Shown here: positions 5,411-16,616 of the stretch, piece after piece
Layout of the letters: every line of letters begins with the position of its first letter
Numbering within the stretch: the first letter of the stretch is position 1
NCBI RefSeq assembly: GCF_003815715.1
Contig: NZ_CP033922.1
Location: 1,439,001 to 1,503,000 of the forward strand
Direction: 5' to 3'
DNA: 64,000 nucleotides
Source of the DNA: Chryseobacterium sp. G0162
GTDB lineage: Bacteria; Bacteroidota; Bacteroidia; Flavobacteriales; Weeksellaceae
The notes under the pieces: model-generated
What the model was told of the DNA's origin: nothing
The model's input: only the letters and a program-made list of their open reading frames with translations
Database searches by the model: none
Position numbers and translations under genes: made by a program

Positions 5411-5805
5411 TGGCAGTAACGGTAAAAGCAAGTTTAGGAAAAACAAAATATTATACGCAGGTAACAGCCGGTGAAAATACAATCATTACTGATGAACCTT
5501 TAGATAAAGGTGGACAAAATAAAGGGTTCAATCCGATGGAAATTCTGGCTACTTCTTTAGCAAGCTGTACGGCAGCTACTTTAAGGATGTACATTGAAAG
5601 AAAAGAATGGGATGTAGAAAACATCAATGTAGAAGTGGAACTTGAAAATTATCCATTGACCAAAAGAGCGATCTTCAAAAGAGATATTACTTTTGAAGGG
5701 GTTTTGGATCCTGAACAAATGAAAAGACTTCACACGATTGCTGATGCATGTCCTGTACACAAAATATTAACCAACGATATAGAAATATTAACTAAATTCT
5801 CATAA
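5410..5805 (+). CDS. OsmC/Ohr family peroxiredoxin-like protein
   Basis: This 131-residue protein has the OsmC fold signature: GFNPMEILATSLASCTAATL with the peroxidatic Cys at C53, and ADACPVHKIL with the second Cys at C114. Members reduce organic hydroperoxides through this Cys pair, usually with lipoyl or thiol reductants. It follows the Fe-S protein without a gap and precedes the second small GNAT by 3 nt, so co-expression is likely. Length and Cys spacing fit the YhfA-like OsmC branch rather than Ohr, though that subfamily call is tentative. Confidence 0.92.
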   Translation: MAVTVKASLGKTKYYTQVTAGENTIITDEPLDKGGQNKGFNPMEILATSLASCTAATLRMYIERKEWDVENINVEVELENYPLTKRAIFKRDITFEGVLDPEQMKRLHTIADACPVHKILTNDIEILTKFS

Positions 5806-5808
5806 AAC

Positions 5809-6096
5809 ATGATCGAAGTAAAACAAAATAACGACGAAAAACACGGAAGTTTTGAAGCTTTCATAGATGGAAGACGCGCAGGAATGATGACGTACACCTG
5901 GGCAGGAGAAGAAAGATTTATTATTGACCACACCGAGGTAGAAGAAGCCTACAACGGAAAAGGGGTAGGTAAGGAAATGCTTTTGGCTGCTGTAGATTTT
6001 GCAAGAAAAAACGGAAAAAAAATTATTCCGCTTTGCCCTTTTGCTAAAGCCAGTTTCCAAAAGAGCGAGGAGCTACAGGATGTTTTGGTGAATTAG
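5809..6096 (+). CDS. Small GNAT-like N-acetyltransferase (YjdJ type), second copy
   Basis: This 95-residue PF14542-type protein contains EEAYNGKGVGKEMLLAAVDF, with the GKGVGK acetyl-CoA loop, and IIPLCPFAKASFQK near the C-terminus, the same layout as the protein at 2800-3111. It is the last gene of the run and a good terminator follows within 25 nt. Its neighbours (Fe-S YjdI-like and OsmC) recall the yjdI-yjdJ arrangement. The acylation target is unknown. Confidence 0.88.
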   Translation: MIEVKQNNDEKHGSFEAFIDGRRAGMMTYTWAGEERFIIDHTEVEEAYNGKGVGKEMLLAAVDFARKNGKKIIPLCPFAKASFQKSEELQDVLVN

Positions 6097-8658: not shown

Positions 8659-9177
8659 ATGAAAAAAATTATTTCACTTTTCATCTTTGTATTAACTTTC
8701 GGATCTGTAGCAGCTCAGGAGAATTTTGAAGTGTCTACTTTAAGAATTGGGCCTTACAAAATCTTTATGGAAAAAAGTGAAGCAGAAAAAATATCAGGAG
8801 CTAAAATTAAAATTTCTGATGGACAACAAAAGAATACTGTAAAATACAACGGAGAGGCTATTAATATTGAAGTCTTCCAGGGTTATGGCGGAGAAGCCAA
8901 ACCTGATGCAGTTACCATTGCCGGAATGACAACTACCAGTAAAAAATTCAGAACCAAAAGCGGAATGGGTGTCGGAAGCACCAGAGATGAGCTTATCAAT
9001 ACATATAAAAACTATCCTATATTCAGTGTTCGACCGGAGGTAGATGATCATGGCAAACGTATTAAAGATGCAGGATACTTTAATATTGAAGACTATGATG
9101 CCGGAACCCAGTTAACATTTAAATTTGTTAATAATATTGTTACAGAAATTACAGTTTACATCAACGAAGGCTGTTAA
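8659..9177 (+). CDS. Secreted protein of unknown function
   Basis: This 172-residue protein has a signal peptide (MKKIISLFIFVLTFG...AAQ). The middle contains SGMGVGSTRDELINTY, which resembles the short helix-turn found in SmpA/OmlA-type and related periplasmic beta proteins, followed by beta-rich sequence and a C-terminal NEGC. I do not recognise a specific family. It follows the SGNH esterase closely and ends at a terminator, so it is the last gene of the symporter operon. Confidence 0.75.
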   Translation: MKKIISLFIFVLTFGSVAAQENFEVSTLRIGPYKIFMEKSEAEKISGAKIKISDGQQKNTVKYNGEAINIEVFQGYGGEAKPDAVTIAGMTTTSKKFRTKSGMGVGSTRDELINTYKNYPIFSVRPEVDDHGKRIKDAGYFNIEDYDAGTQLTFKFVNNIVTEITVYINEGC

Positions 9178-13266: not shown

Positions 13267-13467
13267 ATGAAAAAATTAATTGGCATGAAGAGAAACTTCT
13301 CTTCTTTAGAAAACAAAAAGATCAACAGAAATGATTTAAAAGCTGTTCAGGGAGCCAATAGCTACGACATTTCAGAAAACGCAACATGCTATGACAAAAA
13401 AACTTATAATGACAAGTGTGTACTTATAAGTACATTATATATAGGTGATAATTGTGGCGGATTGTAA
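13267..13467 (+). CDS. Candidate RiPP precursor of a grasp-with-SPASM system
   Basis: This 66-residue peptide has a Lys/Asn-rich leader ending LKAVQGA, similar to the bacteriocin-type leaders (LK.I.GG) of this group. A C-terminal core of about 36 residues contains C41, C51 and C63 together with many Asp, Thr, Ser and Lys residues. These are the residue types an ATP-grasp ligase could join through ester or amide crosslinks. The role is inferred from leader form and position: a terminator-like hairpin follows at once, and the ATP-grasp and SPASM genes lie downstream on the same strand. The leader cleavage site after the QGA is a guess. Confidence 0.75.
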   Translation: MKKLIGMKRNFSSLENKKINRNDLKAVQGANSYDISENATCYDKKTYNDKCVLISTLYIGDNCGGL

Positions 13468-13471
13468 TATT

Positions 13472-13498
13472 ATAGAGGGTTTATCCCTCTATTTTTTT
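13472..13498 (+). terminator. Terminator or attenuator behind the precursor gene
   Basis: ATAGAGGG and CCCTCTAT enclose a 5-nt loop and are followed by seven T residues, 5 nt after the precursor stop. Placed between precursor and enzymes, it would keep precursor mRNA in excess, as in many RiPP operons. Confidence 0.7.
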
Positions 13499-13559
13499 CA
13501 ATACAAAAATGATAGAATACTACTTTTTTCATTCGCTTAAATTAACACTCAGCACAATC

Positions 13560-14462
13560 ATGAAAAATCATAATTACAGCTTATTTTCATCCCTATTATT
13601 AACTTCCATTTTTCTATTAATTTCTTGTAAAAACAGAGACCTTAATTATATAGATTATTATAATAAAGTGTATACTATTGACAGTATTCATAGAGTAAAT
13701 AAAGATACCCTGGCTACCATTAAACAGTACAAGAAATTATTCAGGCAATATCCACCGGTCCAGAATGAGAGAATTACCGAATATGAAGTTTACATCAAAA
13801 TGGCGGACAAATATCATCAGGATTTTGGCGGCGTAAAAAGTCTGGATAAGCTATTAGCACAAACAGCCCCTTATTGGCAGCCTGACCGCGATTTTTATCA
13901 GCTATATAAAAGACATGGAATAGACAGTCTACAGGTAGAAAAAAAATTTCAACGATGGAGAAAGGGACTTAATCAAGTTTTGGTAGACTCATTCAGTATT
14001 GCTTTTACAAGAGATCAGCATAACAGAAATATCAAAGAGATTGTTGAAATGAATGATAAAAAAAATGCAGAACTTTTACTATGGACTTTTAAAAATTATG
14101 GATATCCGTCTTTGCAAAAAAAGGGACATCTGGGAAGAGATGGCCAGCTAATGGCGATGGGAACTATGCTTAACCACATGGCCTATACGAAGTACTATGA
14201 ATATTTCAAAACTAAATTACTTGAATATGTAAAATCCGGAGAATGTACTCCAAGAGATTATATTGAAATGGTAGACAAATATCAATATGCGAATAAAGGA
14301 GCAACAATGTATGGAATATTTATGCGCTTTGATGAGGCTAATCTGAGTGCTGCCGATTCTGCAAGAATTGATAAAAACCGTGCAGCGGTAGGATTTCCCA
14401 GAATGAAAACCTCGATGAAGATTGCCAAAGATTTTTTTGATAAGCTTAAAAAACAAAAATGA
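13560..14462 (+). CDS. DUF6624-like lipoprotein within the RiPP cluster
   Basis: The start is taken at 13560 because it gives a proper lipoprotein signal (SLLLTSIFLLISC, lipobox LISC) after a short Lys/Asn n-region. An earlier in-frame ATG at 13509 would add 17 residues before it. The protein has 300 residues. Its C-terminal half has RDQHNRN, a GYPSLQKKG segment and conserved His/Tyr positions resembling DUF6624. It is probably anchored in the outer or inner membrane facing the periplasm. Its stop overlaps the ATP-grasp start by 4 nt (ATGA), so it is part of the biosynthetic operon. A role in immunity, export or processing is possible but unproven. Confidence 0.8.
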   Translation: MKNHNYSLFSSLLLTSIFLLISCKNRDLNYIDYYNKVYTIDSIHRVNKDTLATIKQYKKLFRQYPPVQNERITEYEVYIKMADKYHQDFGGVKSLDKLLAQTAPYWQPDRDFYQLYKRHGIDSLQVEKKFQRWRKGLNQVLVDSFSIAFTRDQHNRNIKEIVEMNDKKNAELLLWTFKNYGYPSLQKKGHLGRDGQLMAMGTMLNHMAYTKYYEYFKTKLLEYVKSGECTPRDYIEMVDKYQYANKGATMYGIFMRFDEANLSAADSARIDKNRAAVGFPRMKTSMKIAKDFFDKLKKQK

Positions 14463-15361
14463 TTCTCATTATTTCTGAAAATAAAGAAAATACAACCAAT
14501 GAAGTGATCAAATATCTTCTTGCTATGAATAAGAAGTTCATTCGAGTACACGAAGATGAAATTTTTGAAATTAAAACCGATCAAAAAAGACTTTTTCTGG
14601 TAAGTGAAAGAAATAGATTTTGCATTGATGATATAAACAGTGTATGGTACAGAACCGGAGGGTTGACATTCAGGCGGCTGCGCTATGACAATGAATCTAT
14701 TAATCTTAATATGAATGAATATCAACATTGGCTGGAAGATTATGTGAGAAAAACCTTAGAATCTAAAAGACATATCAATAAAGAAAGCAATAGTGATGTC
14801 AACAAACTCCTGGTATTGGAAAAGGCAAAAAAGGTTGGTTTGGATGTCCCTGATTATTTCCTGGCTGATAATACCGATGAAGTAAAGCTCAACAAAACAA
14901 TCATCAAAACCATTGGTGGAAATCCCAGGGCTGAAAATATTACTGAAAATGTCACCGGGATGATGTATACTTCAATTGTAACGGAACCTCAGAAAAGTAA
15001 TTTCTTTATTACTTTTTTTCAGGAAAAAATTGAAAAAGATTTCGAGATCAGGAGCTTTTATCTGAATGGAAAAGTATGGTCAACGGCCATCTTTTCACAA
15101 AATGATGAGCGGACCAAAATTGATTTCAGAAAATATAACCATACAAAACCCAACAGAAATGTTCCTTATAATCTGCCCAAAAGTATTGAAGACAAAATTC
15201 ATTTACTGATGCTGTCGCTGGACCTCAACAGTGGTTCATTGGATCTTATTAAGAGCAAGGATAAATTTTATTTTTTAGAAGTGAATGCCATAGGCCAGTT
15301 TCTTGGACATTCAGTGCTCTGTAATTATTCATTAGAAAAAGAAATTGCTGACTATTTATGA
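14459..15361 (+). CDS. gwsG: Grasp-with-SPASM system ATP-grasp peptide maturase
   Basis: This 300-residue protein resembles the ATP-grasp ligases of graspetide (microviridin-like) systems. A short N-terminal domain ending VWYRTGG precedes the central DVPDYFLADN and TGMMYTSIV segments. The ATP-grasp core has DFEIRSFYLNGKVWSTAIF at about 194-212 and the metal-binding FLEVNAIGQF at 272-281 (E274, N276). Such enzymes use ATP to activate Asp or Glu side chains and form macrocyclic ester or amide links in a precursor peptide. It is coupled by ATGA overlaps to the lipoprotein before it and the 60-residue ORF after it. Confidence 0.88.
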   Translation: MILIISENKENTTNEVIKYLLAMNKKFIRVHEDEIFEIKTDQKRLFLVSERNRFCIDDINSVWYRTGGLTFRRLRYDNESINLNMNEYQHWLEDYVRKTLESKRHINKESNSDVNKLLVLEKAKKVGLDVPDYFLADNTDEVKLNKTIIKTIGGNPRAENITENVTGMMYTSIVTEPQKSNFFITFFQEKIEKDFEIRSFYLNGKVWSTAIFSQNDERTKIDFRKYNHTKPNRNVPYNLPKSIEDKIHLLMLSLDLNSGSLDLIKSKDKFYFLEVNAIGQFLGHSVLCNYSLEKEIADYL

Positions 15362-15540
15362 AAAAGAATTTTACTCCTAAAGAAAAACACCCGCTTCCCC
15401 TCATTTATAACTATATGGAAATGATACACAACAAAGAAAGCATGAAACTTACTGTCAATACCACTGTGAGCAGTAAAAAATATCAGACTGATTTCTATGC
15501 AAAATCAAAACCTTACAAATTCCTGGTAAGATTCTTATGA
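15358..15540 (+). CDS. Small protein of the RiPP cluster, function unknown
   Basis: This 60-residue basic protein (MKKNFTPKEKHPLPLIYNYM at the start) has no recognised motif, signal peptide or Cys. It is probably a real gene because it overlaps both flanking genes by exactly 4 nt (ATGA at 15358-15361 and at 15537-15540). That leaves no spare sequence and implies translational coupling from gwsG to gwsS. It could be a second substrate, a leader-binding adaptor or a chaperone for the maturases; nothing in the sequence decides between these. Confidence 0.7.
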   Translation: MKKNFTPKEKHPLPLIYNYMEMIHNKESMKLTVNTTVSSKKYQTDFYAKSKPYKFLVRFL

Positions 15541-16616
15541 GATATTTTAATATATTCAGTACCATTTTTATTACGAAAGGTGTCAATAGAATATTGATTT
15601 CTGACCTTCAGAGGAACACCTCTGAGCTCTATCCATTAGAATTTTATGACCTGATGGAAGAATTAAAAAAGAAATCCATTGAAGAAATTCTGGAAATGTA
15701 TGATAAAGAATCTCAGGATATTGTTCAGGAATATTTAGAGATTCTTTTAGAAAATGAATATGGATTTATTACACGGAATAACTGGGATCGGAATTTTCCT
15801 GCCTTATCTTATGAATACAGCGAGCCAAATCGTATCAATGACCTCTTTATCGAAATTGCGGAGATCAGCCTTTTAAATAGGTTAAGAAACGCTGTAGAGA
15901 ATCTTGAGATCAGACACTTGGTAATCTACAGTTCAAGATCGTTAACAGTAGAGGAATTTATAAGTATAGATCACATCTTCACCTCATCCGTACTTATGGG
16001 AATAGAAATCATTTCTCCTTTTCATGCAGCAATAGATCAAGCATACATACAGAAACTGAACCATGAAACAGAAAGAATTTATAGTCTCATTTTCTATCAA
16101 TGTCCTCAGAAACCTTTCAAAATAAAAGATGAATTCAAATTCAGTCTGAACTTTGTAAAAGAACATCTAAAAATATCATCCTGTGGAAAGGTAGATATGA
16201 AGTATTTCAATACCAATCTTCCCAAAGTACTGGAAGCTATCAATCATAATTCCTGCCTGTATAAAAAGATCAGTATAGACATTGAAGGCAACATTAAAAA
16301 TTGCCCTTTAATGCCGGAAAGCTTTGGAAAAATTCAAAACAGAAGTCTTGAAGAAGCTTTAATGCAACCAGGATTCAAGAGATACTGGAATATTACTAAA
16401 GACAGTATAGAAGGCTGTAAAGACTGTGAATTCAGGTATATCTGTACAGATTGCAGGGCTTATACTGAACGATCACATTATACTTCAGAAAACATAGATA
16501 TATCAAAGCCTTTAAAGTGCGGTTATAATCCTTATACCAATGAATGGAAAGAATGGAGTAAAAATCCACTGAAACAGAAAGCCATCCACCATTATGAAAT
16601 CCAAGAAGCAAAATAG
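15537..16616 (+). CDS. gwsS: Grasp-with-SPASM system SPASM-domain peptide maturase
   Basis: The first 200 or so of its 359 residues lack the CxxxCxxC motif of radical SAM enzymes. The C-terminal part has a seven-Cys SPASM pattern: C240, G251, C256, then C294, C297, C303, C306 and finally C328. It matches the SPASM-only partner of grasp-with-SPASM systems. Two auxiliary Fe-S clusters are expected in the SPASM domain. Without the SAM-binding cluster, radical chemistry is unlikely, so it may bind or position the peptide. It is the last gene of the cluster; the terminator overlaps its stop codon. Confidence 0.88.
   Translation: MRYFNIFSTIFITKGVNRILISDLQRNTSELYPLEFYDLMEELKKKSIEEILEMYDKESQDIVQEYLEILLENEYGFITRNNWDRNFPALSYEYSEPNRINDLFIEIAEISLLNRLRNAVENLEIRHLVIYSSRSLTVEEFISIDHIFTSSVLMGIEIISPFHAAIDQAYIQKLNHETERIYSLIFYQCPQKPFKIKDEFKFSLNFVKEHLKISSCGKVDMKYFNTNLPKVLEAINHNSCLYKKISIDIEGNIKNCPLMPESFGKIQNRSLEEALMQPGFKRYWNITKDSIEGCKDCEFRYICTDCRAYTERSHYTSENIDISKPLKCGYNPYTNEWKEWSKNPLKQKAIHHYEIQEAK

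Follow-up and report, generated by a model that had tools for sequence, protein, structure and literature searches.

A grasp-with-spasm operon in Chryseobacterium sp. G0162

We analysed a 64,000-nucleotide stretch (the window) of the single-contig, 5,276,141-base genome of Chryseobacterium sp. G0162, positions 1,439,001-1,503,000 of NZ_CP033922.1 (C1:1439001-1503000), which contains a gene cluster for a ribosomally synthesised and post-translationally modified peptide (RiPP). Five open reading frames (ORFs) on the + strand form one operon encoding, in order, a precursor peptide, a lipoprotein, an ATP-grasp ligase, a 60-amino-acid protein and a SPASM protein (Table 1), with 4-nt ATGA overlaps at the last three junctions. 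A first-pass annotation made from the sequence had placed the five genes at 13267..16616 and described their ATGA chaining, and both descriptions hold. NCBIfam models identified the precursor as TIGR04139 (46.7 bits, cut-off 40), the ATP-grasp protein as TIGR04192 (346.5 bits, cut-off 230) and the SPASM protein as TIGR04193 (423.4 bits, cut-off 175), the latter two scoring well above the cut-offs of the models suggested in that annotation as a check. The same search gave no match above cut-off for the lipoprotein or the 60-amino-acid protein. The TIGR04192 and TIGR04193 genes are parted only by the gene for the 60-amino-acid protein (hereafter LPL), which is the arrangement of a grasp-with-spasm system, and we adopted for them the maturase names gwsG and gwsS used in public plasmid annotation. 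The cluster is a grasp-with-spasm graspetide operon whose gene set matches the published Branch 5 graspetides of Bacteroidetes (Makarova et al. 2022, PMC8939145; this and the other papers are cited for the parts of their text available to us), so its kind is already known. The earlier remark that such systems are known by name and poorly described in their chemistry agrees with the literature searched, in which the Branch 5 gene set is described and its product is not.

Table 1 Features of the grasp-with-spasm operon, in positions of the window
Feature	Position	Strand	Description
Precursor peptide, 66 aa	13267..13467	+	TIGR04139; leader 1-30 (MKKLIGMKRNFSSLENKK...VQGA), core 31-66
Terminator-like hairpin	13472..13492	+	8 bp stem, 5-nt loop, T tract; between precursor and enzyme genes
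Predicted lipoprotein, 300 aa	13560..14462	+	Lipobox C23; C-terminal half apparently related to DUF6624; all-helical model
GwsG, ATP-grasp ligase, 300 aa	14459..15361	+	TIGR04192; likely macrocyclase
LPL protein, 60 aa	15358..15540	+	N-terminal K-LPL motif, C-terminal KP-K-L-R-L motif
GwsS, SPASM protein	15537..16616	+	TIGR04193; predicted RRE-like winged helix, shrunken barrel, SPASM domain

Two sets of loci were compared with the window. The first comprises 81 loci (80 fetched wide loci and the window itself), taken mostly from the higher-scoring TIGR04193 matches, and distant variants are under-sampled in it; the 51 nearest to the window are referred to as near loci and the other 30 are more distant. 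The second consists of 80 named loci found with an ATP-grasp alignment, some genomes being common to both sets. An ATP-grasp match was present in all 81 first-set loci, a few of them broken, and a SPASM protein lies downstream in 79 of the 80 named loci, the exception (L233) stopping at a contig edge.

GwsS is a SPASM protein lacking the radical-SAM motif

Judged by its sequence, GwsS is not a radical S-adenosylmethionine (SAM) enzyme. The CxxxCxxC (CX3CX2C) motif is absent from the window protein and from all 161 relatives (82 from the first set pooled with 79 from the named loci), whereas 13 of the 13 ordinary SPASM proteins examined, all weak matches to the model, do have it; this control began with 15 loci, of which two without a qualifying ORF were dropped. 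Cysteines were counted in the 157 GwsS proteins of at least 300 amino acids (147 distinct sequences), four partial proteins below that length being dropped, and in 68 of them fewer than three Cys precede C216, too few there for a SAM cluster. The SPASM domain itself is recognised by TIGR04085 (30.8 bits, cut-off 27) and contains two Cys quartets, AuxI (216/240/256/306) and AuxII (294/297/303/328), which in order and spacing match the AuxI and AuxII ligands as proposed for AhbD (PMC10452713). AuxII is present in all 157 proteins. AuxI is whole in 133, which therefore have eight SPASM Cys where seven to eight are characteristic (ligands being read from sequence), wholly lost in 23 and reduced to one of its four Cys in a single protein, with no other pattern seen. 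A quick tree of 111 sequences needs three changes to account for the loss of AuxI, which may have had one origin. The invariance of the AuxII ligands in proteins from which the SAM motif has gone argues that these ligands are kept by selection. A GwsS subfamily that keeps AuxII without AuxI occupies 24 loci (L219, L224, L231, L237, L241, L243, L252 and others).

The AlphaFold2 model of GwsS (predicted local distance difference test, pLDDT, 87.4; predicted template modelling score, pTM, 0.81) consists of a winged helix at about residues 1-86, a shrunken (beta/alpha) barrel at about 98-206 and then the SPASM domain. It matches TigE and CteB over most of its length with a large root mean square deviation, the closest full-length folds being radical-SAM peptide maturases. 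Residues 1-92 match by predicted structure the RiPP recognition element (RRE) domains of TbiB1, TruD and MccB, and this predicted domain has a PqqD-like winged-helix fold. This domain is unrecognisable from sequence, for which the search returned only two designed-protein matches, and a profile of whole GwsS against the sequences of the PDB gave two weak matches that were not used. The protein has the appearance of a one-time radical enzyme whose catalytic centre is gone and whose leader-binding domain and iron-sulfur sites remain. It is unlikely to form thioethers; we dropped radical-SAM thioether chemistry on the motif counts (0/161 against 13/13), and with the motif missing the SPASM protein should not be taken for a second cross-linking enzyme.

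The precursor carries an obligatory acid and optional cysteines

Counts for the precursor refer to 43 full-length sequences out of 44 found (L072, truncated at 21 amino acids, was dropped). A common leader, MKKL-GMK--FSS-EN, occurs in 44 of the 81 first-set loci, all 44 among the near loci; seven of the 51 near loci miss the strict pattern, several of them carrying a close variant left out of the count, and the L054 locus begins so close to the enzymes that it has no room for one. The likely cleavage site of the window precursor, VQGA, lies at 29/30, and the three core Cys (41, 51 and 63) that had been noticed in this 66-residue peptide are all downstream of it. As a general feature of such cores the Cys fared less well, 12 of the 43 related precursors having none, two having one, 27 having two and two having three. 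At one column of the core all 43 sequences have an acidic residue (D in 34, E in 9), which in the window is D43. Of the conserved Asp/Glu with Ser/Thr/Lys pairs that were to be looked for, the acid is thus universal and donors are frequent, with Ser, Thr or Lys at the column next to the acid in 34/43 and Thr near the end in 27/43, but no donor column is invariant. A core acid that is always there, beside Cys that can be absent and is mostly paired, fits a graspetide acceptor and speaks against a shared reaction based on Cys. None of the 43 leaders contained Phhx(1,2)h, a motif reported in about half of graspetide precursors and as lacking in this branch (PMC8939145), so that it is not a defining feature here.

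A hairpin with an exact stem and a T-rich tail follows the precursor stop codon in 30 of 43 loci and in none of 215 control windows, which lie 400-1200 nt downstream and are mostly coding. It is a probable attenuator giving surplus precursor transcript. The terminator scan of the window, with 4 terminator-like sites in 4.8 kb against 2.1 expected, is weak taken alone.

Some other loci hold unusual precursor genes. The precursor-like ORF L085:3491-3676 has a core made almost entirely of Ser and Asp repeats and is a possible substrate for a many-ring graspetide, while L093:3520-4230 (- strand) and L107:3083-3709 each hold three tandem near-identical or closely similar precursor genes per cluster.

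GwsG and co-diversification with the core

GwsG is homologous to four solved ligases, 5ig9 (E 4.2e-16), CdnC 7mgv (7.2e-15), AMdnB 7m4s (1.4e-12) and 5ig8 (5.7e-10), so that its early recognition as a graspetide-type ATP-grasp enzyme stands. Residues K116, K150, K193, E196, R198, D222, R224, D262, E274 and N276 are invariant in an 80-row alignment and presumably have catalytic roles. By homology GwsG most likely forms the ring or rings, as ester or amide, at D43.

Core distances were correlated with those of the other proteins at 41 of the 43 loci, two without an adjacent lipoprotein being dropped; the analysis by domain used 40 loci, L074 also being dropped. The core correlated with the lipoprotein at r 0.85, with GwsG at r 0.81 (Mantel) and with GwsS at r 0.49, and the partial correlations were 0.59 for core and lipoprotein given GwsG, 0.47 for core and GwsG given the lipoprotein and 0.19 for core and GwsS given GwsG. 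By domain, the values against the core were 0.82 for the C-terminal half of GwsG, 0.70 for LPL and, within GwsS, 0.39 for the N-terminal, 0.49 for the middle and 0.28 for the SPASM part. Bootstrap intervals excluded zero in all three core comparisons and included it in all three leader comparisons; tracking of GwsS by the leader, indicated at first (0.54 against 0.37), was dropped on these intervals. Gene order and unequal conservation may contribute to the core correlations. The cores co-diversify more with the ATP-grasp protein and the lipoprotein than with GwsS, and the co-variation of core and enzyme proposed as a check on the first-pass annotation is found with the ATP-grasp protein. Together with the family matches it supports the idea that this peptide would be the substrate of the cluster's enzymes.

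LPL is a conserved gene, once fused to GwsS

The 51 near loci contain 52 SPASM genes, and each of the 52 has an LPL homologue between it and the ATP-grasp gene; at some of these loci LPL and gwsS are separated by a lipoprotein gene. Compared with three close relatives, over half of the base changes fall at third codon positions (19/33, 19/34 and 22/36). Because of this and of its conserved placement the 60-amino-acid ORF is taken to be a real gene. It has HPLPL at residues 11-15 and a 4-nt overlap with gwsS, the features by which PMC8939145 describes the LPL family, and L13, P52 and K54 are invariant in 52 rows. A profile of 113 LPL sequences, from which L240 was excluded, was scored against 9,993 ORFs and found a natural LPL-GwsS fusion, the 435-amino-acid gwsS ORF of L240 (L240:6998-8302) from a Thermoanaerobaculum metagenome-assembled genome, with LPL at residues 18-63. 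Its E of 9.9e-5 is the best among ORFs of at least 120 amino acids, the next being 2.6. A near-clade LPL profile run over 197 family genomes matched 30 of them at 35 places, in frames of 54-91 amino acids, and no LPL fusion was found in those 197 genomes. LPL is a probable subunit of GwsS.

Two other roles for LPL were rejected. That of a trans-acting leader carrying Phhx(1,2)h was not supported, since the motif occurs in 37 of 113 sequences against a shuffle mean of 27.5 (spread not computed), little above shuffles; as a second precursor it lacks a hypervariable core, both ends being conserved. Several loci depart from the usual pattern. In L249 an LPL-like ORF (E 0.0037) adjoins a precursor instead, and at L087:4840-4992 and L096:3224-3394 the ORFs in the LPL position combine a GG-type leader-like start with the C-terminal FYKPISK motif of LPL. 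The likely precursor of L240 (~5673-5870) has a GG leader and no Cys.

The lipoprotein and candidate transporters

The lipoprotein is best read from 13560, with the lipobox LLISC, and all 59 aligned rows share C23, D143, R151, N169 and H206. By profile comparison it is a distant relative of DUF6624, hhalign giving 97.9% and E 4e-13 to the DUF6624 alignment in a single comparison against less than 1% in two control comparisons. DUF6624 (PF20329) is not among the Pfam matches of the window lipoprotein itself, and 5 of 59 homologues match it at E<=0.1 (best 0.0055), other families scoring similarly. The AlphaFold2 model (pLDDT 89.3) has no significant solved or viral fold relative in the PDB and viral libraries (best Foldseek E 0.24). 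The window protein has a lipobox and conserved His and Arg, as PMC8939145 describes for its cluster 23, and may belong to that cluster.

The gene is present in 47 of 51 near loci, 1 of the 30 other first-set loci and 31 of the 80 named loci, and tandem or broken copies occur in further loci. Homologues on two Elizabethkingia anophelis plasmids (L256:5003-5932 and L257:5003-5932) match the profile strongly, but their first 45 residues contain no Cys and hence no lipobox; lipidation is thus not a general property of these proteins. The window's genome also holds an orphan copy, L124:1504-2358 (C1:768207-769052), followed by a serine-hydrolase-like lipoprotein gene (labelled by eye), with neither precursor nor maturases within the 3.8 kb read.

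A transporter model matched 47 times in the window's genome and not within the window. Two matches span the full length and include the beginning of a C39 peptidase, one of them about 2 kb downstream of a second grasp-with-spasm cluster (C1:1774692-1775726), and a similar transporter is present in 29 of the 80 named loci.

Distribution and mobile copies

TIGR04193 was found in 116 of 148 Chryseobacterium genomes at E<=0.001 (106 above cut-off) and, across the phylum, in 30 of 395 (12 above cut-off). The two E. anophelis plasmids, of 35 and 37 kb, carry a five-gene cassette of precursor, lipoprotein homologue, gwsG, LPL ORF and gwsS, the four conserved proteins being supported by profile scores. 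The family is widespread in Chryseobacterium and is also borne by these two Elizabethkingia plasmids, with a product undescribed in the literature searched. The plasmid LPL genes (L256:6828-7004 and L257:6828-7004), between gwsG and gwsS, are absent from the annotation table, and a third plasmid record is a Hymenobacter match at 26% identity.

The second complete cluster of the window's genome (L032:3995-7287, ~C1:1772494-1775786) has its own precursor, lipoprotein and LPL, and the genome's second TIGR04139 copy adjoins it. A 54-amino-acid GG-leader peptide of a different type (L032 ~9000-9164) lies between this cluster and the C39-type ABC transporter. The cluster in the window is flanked by transketolase-like genes (window:9288-11128) and an AsnC-type regulator (window:17122-17592), all named by eye; pieces of these neighbours recur in some relatives, such as L049, and the site may be shared.

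Proposed pathway and alternative explanations

The best explanation of the whole, and in our judgement a probable one, is that GwsG makes the ring or rings and that GwsS with LPL is an iron-sulfur leader-recognition partner. In the chemistry and binding that we infer, the precursor would be translated from an upstream transcript partly stopped at the hairpin behind its gene. GwsS, as a catalytically dead descendant of RRE-radical SAM-SPASM maturases, would bind the leader by its N-terminal winged helix and, with LPL as subunit, hold the precursor for GwsG, as fold, fusion and operon suggest. By homology GwsG with ATP would activate a core carboxylate, most likely that of D43, and join it to a Ser, Thr or Lys side chain. 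A C39-type transporter encoded elsewhere, for which the genome has two full-length candidates, would cut the leader after VQGA and export the product; Cys, where present, would probably form disulfides outside the cell; and the lipoprotein, being matched to the core, would meet the exported peptide, either in self-protection or as a dedicated processing or docking protein. That GwsS and LPL are a retired maturase turned leader-recognition or activation subunit of the ATP-grasp ligase, which keeps the leader-binding domain and AuxII site and replaces the leader helix carried by other graspetide precursors, is a more tentative proposal, which we would place just short of an even call. If true, it would make them a new kind of graspetide partner and would mean iron-sulfur-dependent, RRE-guided graspetide synthesis, of which we found no earlier description, with two-cluster and one-cluster GwsS as natural variants.

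Several observations pull the other way. GwsS has a full SPASM domain and its model has radical-SAM peptide maturases as the closest full-length folds; PMC8939145 names the protein a radical SAM enzyme, considers thioethers possible and describes three conserved Cys in one precursor cluster; and 31 of the 43 related precursors have Cys. GwsS might on these grounds be a working radical-SAM enzyme that makes thioether or other radical cross-links from precursor Cys. This is very improbable given the absence of CxxxCxxC from 161 of 161 proteins when 13 of 13 controls have it, the 68/157 with too few Cys ahead of C216, the 12/43 Cys-free precursors, the 27 with exactly two Cys that fit a disulfide, and a core that barely tracks the SPASM domain (r 0.28). 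A non-radical activity of GwsS, redox or Lewis-acid chemistry at the auxiliary clusters only, could add a second modification after GwsG, for example by oxidising or binding a core residue. The AuxII Cys, invariant in 157/157 although the SAM motif is gone, point to a site under selection, and some SPASM enzymes bind their substrate at an open cluster site (PMC10452713). We nevertheless find it unlikely, as four AuxII Cys in every protein leave no obvious open site, AuxI is dispensable (wholly lost in 23/157), core variation does not follow the SPASM domain and neither the window nor the plasmids have a gene for a reductase or ferredoxin in the interval from precursor to gwsS.

LPL could also be a detached leader or activator of GwsG that provides in trans the leader helix missing from the precursors of this branch. 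The 0/43 leaders with Phhx(1,2)h and the correlation of LPL with the core (r 0.70) would fit, the possibility was raised for LPL in PMC8939145, and for some RiPP pathways a leader supplied in trans can work in vitro (PMC13003496). With the motif count close to that of shuffled sequences (37/113 against a mean of 27.5) and the sole fusion found joining LPL to GwsS, we regard this as rather unlikely, if somewhat less so than chemistry at the auxiliary clusters. For the lipoprotein, a role as a biosynthetic or processing enzyme, instead of an immunity or docking protein, is a serious possibility, short of being our preferred one. Extracellular enzymes are predicted in PMC8939145 from the conserved His and Arg, Carter et al. 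2026 (PMC13097080) put DUF6624 forward as an enzyme class yet to be discovered, and R151 and H206 are invariant in 59/59 rows. Among the 148 Chryseobacterium genomes, moreover, every one with a copy above 300 bits also has a TIGR04193 match, and no immunity-only genome (lipoprotein without TIGR04193) was seen. Against an enzyme stand the all-helical model without a significant solved relative and the occurrence of orphan, tandem and partly broken copies, such copies being common among immunity genes.

Comparison with known systems

Microviridin-type and chryseoviridin ligases (5ig9, 5ig8, AMdnB and CdnC) are homologous to GwsG over most of the chain and share conserved positions with it, but the family in the window differs in that its precursors are without Phhx(1,2)h and its pathway adds GwsS and LPL. 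CteB, TigE and SuiB are RRE-radical SAM-SPASM maturases, and the GwsS model likewise has a barrel and a SPASM domain, preceded, like those of CteB and TigE, by an RRE; GwsS is however shorter and without the SAM-cluster motif. The CX2CX5CX3C spacing occurs in 0/157 GwsS proteins, the full pattern with CX2CX5CX2C in 133/157. GwsS would thus be a case of SPASM auxiliary-cluster ligands retained without the radical-SAM motif, whose non-radical role is directly testable, and a SAM-less, leader-binding iron-sulfur protein would mean looking for dehydration first, not thioethers. Further background was taken from PMC13003496, PMC10352776 and PMC10452713.

The cluster presumably belongs to group 14 of PMC13097080, whose graspetides are listed there with a SPASM protein and a high co-occurrence with an NHLM-type transporter. 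Group 14 is uncharacterised in the available text of that paper, which lists DUF6624 for groups 18, 20, 23 and 42 and not for 14. Rosaritide, from the same paper, offers a parallel in that the graspetide synthetase MirB depends on a co-occurring partner, MirC, as we propose for GwsG, with the difference that MirC is a relative of PpiC-type isomerases and not a SPASM protein.

The closest likeness is to Branch 5, which PMC8939145 defines with this gene set. Like the window, its loci have GG-type precursors with an MKKL start, a TIGR04193 SPASM protein with LPL directly upstream of it and a lipoprotein resembling cluster 23, with conserved Thr/Ser and Asp/Glu in the core and three Cys in one precursor cluster. 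The SPASM protein carries a radical SAM label there, whereas the motif was absent here from 161/161 proteins. A literature search, with most subscription papers outside its scope, found no description of a Branch 5 product, of a SAM-less or RRE-bearing TIGR04193 protein or of an LPL fusion. The predicted RRE fold, the Cys quartets, the LPL-GwsS fusion, the apparent DUF6624 link and the co-diversification of the cores do not appear in the available text of PMC8939145. The cluster family is known yet chemically uncharacterised, and the re-reading of its SPASM protein is new if right.

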